Shown here: piece after piece, positions 45,865 through 47,539 of the stretch | Layout of the letters: each line of letters opens with the position of its first letter | Numbering within the stretch: position 1 is the stretch's first letter | Assembly (NCBI RefSeq): GCF_900101165.1 | Contig: NZ_FNFK01000005.1 | Location: 1 to 64,000, forward strand | Length of the DNA stretch: 64,000 nucleotides | Direction of reading: 5' to 3' | From: Alkalibacterium thalassium | GTDB taxonomy: Bacteria; Bacillota; Bacilli; Lactobacillales; Carnobacteriaceae_A | The notes under the pieces: model-generated | The model's database searches: none | The model's input: the letters and a program-made list of their open reading frames with translations, nothing else | What the model was told of the DNA's origin: nothing | Translations under genes and position numbers: made by a program

Positions 45865-45910
45865 AAAACAGCTATGGAGATGGATGGACTATCTCTCATA
45901 GCTGTTTTTT
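45865..45910. terminator. Terminator shared by opuCD and the minus-strand orphan gene
   Basis: AAAACAGCTATG (45865-45876) pairs with CATAGCTGTTTT (45897-45908), and a T run follows on the plus strand. The convergent gene ends exactly at the hairpin's right edge. Confidence 0.85.
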
Positions 45911-46232
45911 ATTTTGCTAATCTGATATGCCTGATATCTTTGGCATTGATTAAGTAGGTCGTGCGTGATGATGCAGTTTTTATAATGATTTGAGTTGAGT
46001 GAGGTGAAAATACTGGAATCCCGATATACTCGTTGATCTGATCTGAATGAGTAGTAGGATTGACCTGAATGATAATACGCTGCTGCTTTTTCACAGACTG
46101 TTTAAGGAATAAGCCCAACTGACTCTTGGGCATCTGTGGCTGTACTTTAGATAAACTGGTAGAAAACAGGGCGCCGTATCCTTTCCTGAAAACATCTACA
46201 ATATGCTGTGTTTCGATGGCTAATTTACTCAT
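45909..46232 (-). CDS. Uncharacterised 107-residue protein under LexA-like operators
   Basis: I do not recognise this protein with confidence. It is basic. The N-terminal 50 residues look helical (MSKLAIETQHIVDVF), and residues 50-107 look beta-rich (QRIIIQVNPT, STQIIIKTASS, TTYLINAKDIRHIRL). This layout faintly recalls small YolD-like proteins that accompany SOS DNA polymerases, but no polymerase gene is nearby. The start is ATG 46232, six bases after a strong GGGGAGG; upstream in-frame ATGs lie inside the promoter and operators. A good sigma-A promoter overlaps a LexA-like box, with another box just downstream, so expression is probably induced by DNA damage. Confidence 0.75.
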   Translation of the reverse strand: MSKLAIETQHIVDVFRKGYGALFSTSLSKVQPQMPKSQLGLFLKQSVKKQQRIIIQVNPTTHSDQINEYIGIPVFSPHSTQIIIKTASSRTTYLINAKDIRHIRLAK

Positions 46233-46244
46233 GATCGTCCTCCC

Positions 46245-46291
46245 CGAACATATGTTACCTTTAGTATATCGTACGAACATACATTCGTCAA
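46245..46291 (-). promoter_or_regulatory. LexA/DinR-like double operator and promoter
   Basis: On the minus strand TTGACG (46291-46286) and TATACT (46268-46263) are 17 bases apart. CGAACATACATTCG (46274-46287) lies between them, and CGAACATATGTTAC (46245-46258) lies just downstream of the expected transcript start. The second box has one mismatch to the Bacillus consensus CGAACrnryGTTyC and the first has two. Confidence 0.65.
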
Positions 46292-47442: not shown

Positions 47443-47539
47443 TGTTAATACAATTTATATCAATGCGGTTGGGCGTGAGCTTTCAAGGTTATTTTCTTCT
47501 AGGGCGAGAAGAAGGCCTGTTAGCCGCGCCCTTTTTTTT
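47443..47539 (+). promoter_or_regulatory. Structured leader with conditional terminator before ntpF
   Basis: The intrinsic terminator is GGGCG (47502-47506) plus GGC (47514-47516) pairing with GCC (47523-47525) plus CGCCC (47527-47531), then eight Ts. A competing hairpin TTCTTCT/AGAAGAA (47494-47500 with 47507-47513) puts the left GGGCG in its loop and excludes the terminator. A second GGGCG at 47471-47475 can also claim CGCCC. The layout suggests attenuation of the whole operon; the ligand or factor is unknown. Confidence 0.6.

Follow-up and report, generated by a model that had tools for sequence, protein, structure and literature searches.

The 107-codon gene described here lies in the 64,000-nt stretch of Alkalibacterium thalassium DNA that was analysed (the window). 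Judged by the conservation of two LexA-type boxes in its promoter, it is almost certainly under LexA (SOS) control, and its product is very likely a distant, shortened homologue of YolD, a protein suspected of assisting error-prone DNA polymerases. The whole explanation that we propose, and regard as moderately probable, is that a LexA-repressed gene with two operators encodes a damage-tolerance effector built on the YolD core. The regulation and the homology are well supported, while the biochemical role is one that we infer.

Promoter and operators of the 107-codon gene

The coding sequence occupies positions 45909-46232 of the minus strand (ATG at 46232, stop at 45909) and is present in single copy. 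The earlier note had read a promoter TTGACG-17-TATACT before this gene, with one palindrome between the -35 and -10 elements and another near the start point, and the minus strand indeed has this arrangement. The -35 hexamer TTGACG lies at 46286-46291 (TTGAC or TTGC in orthologues) and is followed, after a 17-nt spacer, by the -10 hexamer TATACT at 46263-46268 (TATAMT in most orthologues); this is the best promoter-like site there (10/12). LexA-type box 1, CGAATGTATGTTCG, sits in the spacer, running from 46287 to 46274, and LexA-type box 2, GTAACATATGTTCG, runs from 46258 to 46245, beginning at about +1 and extending through the leader into the Shine-Dalgarno sequence GGGGAGG (46239-46245, minus strand), which abuts it. 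A longer frame from an in-frame upstream ATG (46280) was considered and rejected: it would start inside box 1, in the operator region, and this ATG is unlikely to be the true start because conservation of the protein begins at the ATG at 46232.

The gene is convergent with a glycine-betaine-type ABC transporter (opu) operon, with a hairpin terminator between the two (45865-45908, no strand assigned; -21.8 kcal/mol, z = -9.1), and divergent from a degV-like gene. Among named relatives the closest is A. pelagium, whose copy is 95% identical at the protein level. Elsewhere in the window, a Na+ riboswitch aptamer (RF03071, Rfam match of 47.5 bits) was found at 47467-47513 on the plus strand, just before a V-type ATPase operon that starts at about 47557; this fits a sodium-translocating V-ATPase in an alkaliphile.

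The paired boxes are conserved beyond chance

Box 1 and box 2 each differ from GAACNNNNGTTC by one mismatch. A LexA-like box on its own means little, because single boxes are enriched neither in the window (23 observed against 27 expected, one mismatch allowed) nor across the genome (143 with at most one mismatch, against 208 for the reversed control pattern). A search of 41 genomes for the two-box pattern gave a single match in each of 25, and the reversed control matched none of the 41. Nearly all of these matches (24/25) precede the 107-codon gene or a homologue, and the remaining one falls in the lexA-yneA region of another family; at locus L199, the scan located a homologue in a genome where the protein search had missed it. 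Paired boxes before this gene are significant and exceed chance.

Conservation upstream of the orthologues was checked and spoke for both operators. Among the 64 orthologues examined, box 1 was found in all 64 and box 2 in 60, and in these 60 both boxes are in register, down to about 20% protein identity, with a centre-to-centre distance of 25-32 bp, mostly 27-29. The four orthologues that keep box 1 and have lost box 2 (L218, L222, L229 and L231) are all diverged; three of them come from one genus and have lost the QMP motif, described below, as well. The first half-site of box 2 (window position 46257) reads AAAC or TAAC, not GAAC, in 56 of 60 orthologues, a departure that may reflect the base at the start point or a deliberately weaker site.

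LexA-type boxes elsewhere in the genome

The GAAT half-site of box 1 is shared with the boxes before recA (CGAATGAATGTTCG, locus L101), the umuC-yolD operon (CGAATGTATGTTCC) and a second yolD (CGAATATGTGTTCC) of the same genome, and the lexA region holds the boxes CGAACATCCGTTTG and AGAACAGTTGTTCA. All carriers of the 107-codon gene that were checked have a lexA gene. The double SOS control proposed in the earlier note thus gains support from several sides, as both boxes are conserved, the same box type occurs at recA, lexA and umuC-yolD, and the likely counterpart lp_1611, discussed below, is peroxide-induced and has a LexA box (PMC2174512), all of which argues for repression by LexA. The same note had remarked that neither a polymerase nor lexA is adjacent; this is true, but similar boxes precede umuC-yolD, the second yolD and lexA at other sites in the genome.

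The second canonical YolD-like gene (genome G000, contig C58, locus L123, 906-1359) stands alone, with no polymerase near it and an upstream LexA-type box that reads GGAACACATATTCG on the locus; the genome therefore holds three YolD-related SOS genes.

Distribution in Lactobacillales and probable identity of lp_1611

The gene had been taken for an orphan, a description that the survey did not bear out, since it is widespread and syntenic. In the first sample, every member of its own family and all six members of a second family had exactly one copy. At least two more families of Lactobacillales include many carriers, and one of these would be Lactobacillaceae to judge from the gene order (opu genes, gmk, rpoZ, coaBC, priA). 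The gene is usually found at one locus. The convergent opu operon adjoins it in many genomes, but the neighbour is not the same in every family (cardiolipin synthase, recN-argR, V-ATPase, gmk), and the operators are retained regardless. We rejected a prophage or defence origin, given the constant chromosomal neighbourhood and the lack of PHROG or PADLOC support.

A wider profile, run on 399 genomes sampled from the class, gave no significant match outside Lactobacillales; within the order it added only weaker relatives, in streptococcus-like and other families, with either no LexA box or at most one weak box. Loci L240-L247 hold such weak full-length relatives, from the streptococcus-like family f4 and from families f3 and f8, some of them beside trmD or acpS. 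They carry no LexA double box and may have escaped from LexA control.

In Lactiplantibacillus plantarum WCFS1, lp_1611 is described as an ORF of unknown function that lies beside the opu genes in the opposite orientation, carries a LexA/DinR motif and was induced 32-fold by hydrogen peroxide (PMC2174512). Position, orientation and LexA box make it very probably the counterpart of the 107-codon gene, because its arrangement is that of loci L188 and L189, which lie beside and opposite opu genes. Apart from lp_1611, the literature search yielded no description of the protein family; supplementary tables lay outside this search, and those of PMC3616900, with its reconstructed LexA regulon of Lactobacillaceae, may for instance list it.

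The 107-aa family is distantly related to YolD

Searched as a single sequence, the 107-aa protein gave nothing usable in Pfam, NCBIfam, PHROGs, PADLOC or PDB, and PF08863 matched neither this protein nor any of 30 orthologues; the canonical YolDs of the same genome do match PF08863, below the cut-off. In a profile-profile comparison by hhalign, the canonical YolD profile, made of sequences from the same and related genomes, aligned with that of the 107-aa family at 94.8% probability (E 5.5e-8, 76 columns), against at most 1.5% for the controls, a reversed profile and 40 column shuffles. Moreover, in its own genus the family profile retrieves the YolDs that neighbour umuC (E 5e-8 to 4e-4). An intermediate was found in a YolD of another family that adjoins a UmuC-type polymerase (L193), which joins a YolD N-terminus to a C-terminus resembling the 107-aa family and scores 43.5 bits against the 107-aa family and 21.9 against canonical YolD. 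In the tree, L193 branches next to the 107-aa family, which makes up one side of a branch with support 99/94.

From the profile-profile comparison, the predicted fold, the tree and the L193 intermediate, we consider the 107-aa family to be a sister clade of YolD, with an SH3/WYL-like core and without the N-terminal arm. The earlier guess of a YolD-type protein went in the right direction by these same lines of evidence, but no PF08863 score was obtained and the arm is missing: the DRGxxKW/MMLSDH N-terminal segment, nearly invariant in canonical YolD, is absent from the alignments of the 107-aa family.

The family alignment shows a signature segment of its own, QMPxxQ[IL]xxF[LI]xQ, at residues 33-45 (46098-46136, minus strand), which leads into a predicted helix. 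Its key positions are conserved across the 64 orthologues (M34 in 58, P35 in 59, Q38 in 60 and F42 in 54). Canonical YolD does not conserve Q38 or F42 of the QMPxxQ[IL]xxF motif, which suggests a partner surface different from that of YolD. A beta-clamp motif in the same segment (QLGLF here, QLSLF in L005, QLTLF in L188) was set aside as only a lead, with Leu at position 4 in only 17/64 and the segment predicted to be helical.

A predicted free SH3/Sm-like barrel

AlphaFold2 predicted a five-stranded SH3/Sm-like barrel for residues 53-105 (45918-46076, minus strand; block pLDDT 86-92), which ends in IRHIRL, preceded by a helix at residues 36-49 and by 25 N-terminal residues at low confidence. 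The 107 residues would amount to a single barrel with a short N-terminal helix; no fused DNA-binding domain was found, nor a match to such a family, and neither LysM or another Pfam domain nor a hydrophobic segment was seen in the sequence; the barrel is predicted to be soluble. The Foldseek matches to solved structures were WYL domains (PafBC at the top, with BrxR and CapW) and Hfq, at E 0.002 or worse and a TM score of about 0.5. The AlphaFold2 model of canonical YolD matches the same WYL and Hfq structures and, in addition, DriD and CapW bound to ssDNA. YolD has already been placed in the WYL-like SH3 group and proposed as the Gram-positive counterpart of UmuD (PMC6511836).

These structural matches raise the possibility of a free-standing WYL-like domain that, by binding ssDNA or RecA-ssDNA, serves as a damage sensor or as a modulator of the filament. 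The WYL domains of PafBC and DriD bind ssDNA (PMC11804915, PMC12340889). Retention of the gene in genomes lacking UmuC or YolD, described in the next section, would fit such a role, as would the matches to PafBC, BrxR, CapW and Hfq and those of the YolD model to ssDNA-bound DriD and CapW. However, the likeness in fold is general to SH3/Sm barrels, and the DNA-binding partner domain is missing, and we consider this function unlikely.

The gene persists without UmuC-type polymerase or YolD

None of the genomes tested lacks a Y-family polymerase altogether, and most of those with the 107-codon gene also have one of the UmuC type. Seven genomes with the gene have only DinB-type polymerases and none of the UmuC type, and two others (G068 and G082) have a divergent second polymerase and no DinB; since some carriers have only the DinB type and G068 and G082 lack it, no single Y-family type is required. 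Both boxes and the gene are kept in G017, G314, G366 and G143, which are 99% complete, without a UmuC-type polymerase or a canonical YolD. In G012, which is less complete, the sole match to the YolD profile is the 107-aa gene itself.

As far as gene content can tell, the 107-aa protein is not an obligate Pol V subunit, because its gene is retained in these four nearly complete genomes, where UmuC-type polymerase and YolD are both absent. The persistence of the gene where both are missing also makes it plausible that the function of the protein is new, as had been suggested.

The same data bear on whether the protein could depend entirely on a UmuC-type polymerase for its action, as a subunit or competitor of the YolD type that might, for instance, pair with canonical YolD and restrain Pol V. 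This would agree with the homology to the YolD core, with the umuC-yolD operon and second yolD that this genome holds under similar boxes, and with the UmuC-type polymerase in most carriers. Nevertheless, the gene is kept in seven genomes that lack a UmuC-type polymerase, of which at least four (99% complete) lack YolD too, and the protein does not have the arm through which contact with the polymerase is predicted, which leaves a role confined to UmuC rather improbable.

An SOS cell-division inhibitor standing in for YneA has less to recommend it. In this genome, no yneA is found between lexA and the divergent ynzC-like (DUF896) gene (L127 844-1289, contig C58 of G000), unlike the lexA-yneA arrangement of L200, and a small, tightly repressed protein is typical of such inhibitors. 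The Gram-positive SOS division inhibitors YneA, SosA, ChiA and DivS are membrane proteins, however, and YneA has a LysM domain, while the 107-aa protein reads as soluble and homologous to YolD; this makes division inhibition improbable, and weaker as an explanation than a damage-tolerance effector. A role in regulating the adjacent opu transporter genes, which has been suggested for lp_1611 on positional grounds (PMC2174512) and is consistent with the convergent opu operon in many genomes, is very improbable: the operators persist whichever neighbour a family has, gene and operon have a strong terminator between them, and no helix-turn-helix family was found.

A proposed model for repression and function

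In the mechanism that we propose, a LexA dimer on box 1 would cover the spacer between -35 and -10 and block binding of RNA polymerase, and a second dimer on box 2 would cover +1 and the leader and block initiation. After damage, RecA filaments would trigger the cleavage of LexA, relieving both blocks and producing a strong switch-on. The product would be a compact SH3/WYL-like (Sm-like) domain, namely the YolD core without the DRGxxKW arm, which in YolD is predicted to grip the UmuC-type polymerase. It would act at stalled forks on a partner present in all hosts, which may be Y-family polymerases in general, RecA or ssDNA. That the protein is such a stand-alone damage-tolerance effector at stalled forks, and not an obligate subunit of a UmuC-type Pol V, is a proposal that we hold tentatively, at slightly under an even chance.

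A broader idea, conceivable though doubtful, is that the family represents a separate SOS effector class throughout Lactobacillales, a free YolD/WYL-like domain that would sense or bind ssDNA, RecA filaments or the replication machinery without a UmuC-type polymerase, and that would have two operators since its production must be fully off without damage.

The role of YolD proteins is unsettled, as is the existence of a true Pol V in Gram-positive bacteria (PMC6511836, PMC13335488). YolD is a weak analogy for the function of the 107-aa protein, because even for YqjX, a canonical YolD of B. subtilis, the authors saw no significant effect on mutagenesis and detected no contact with PolY2 (PMC13335488). 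The 107-codon gene offers a natural experiment in this respect: a single-copy YolD core that lacks the polymerase-binding arm, is controlled by a double SOS operator across lactic acid bacteria, and survives where polymerase and YolD are absent. In addition, lp_1611, until now a hypothetical gene 32-fold up in peroxide, gains a conserved identity, provided that it is the counterpart, as is very probable.

Comparison with known systems

For lp_1611, the published description (PMC2174512) names no protein family, second box or wider conservation. UmuD/UmuD' of E. coli Pol V is likewise a small SOS protein, and YolD, its proposed counterpart, has an SH3-like core (PMC6511836); no homology to UmuD is shown, however, and the 107-aa protein has no visible self-cleavage module and is not encoded with umuC. 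With PafBC, DriD, CapW and BrxR, the likeness is in the fold of the predicted barrel, shared with their WYL domains; in those regulators the domain is the C-terminal sensor of a transcription factor, whereas here it would be free. The closest comparison is the YolD family (PF08863: YolD, YqjX and YozL of B. subtilis, YolD of S. aureus), with which the 107-aa family shares SOS control by LexA boxes, the SH3/WYL-like core, a helix and first strand that match ungapped, and the C-terminal IRHI motif. In contrast to YolD, the gene is not adjacent to a UvrX/YqjW-type polymerase at any locus read, is present in genomes without UmuC and YolD, and has its own QMPxxQ[IL]xxF motif and two operators.
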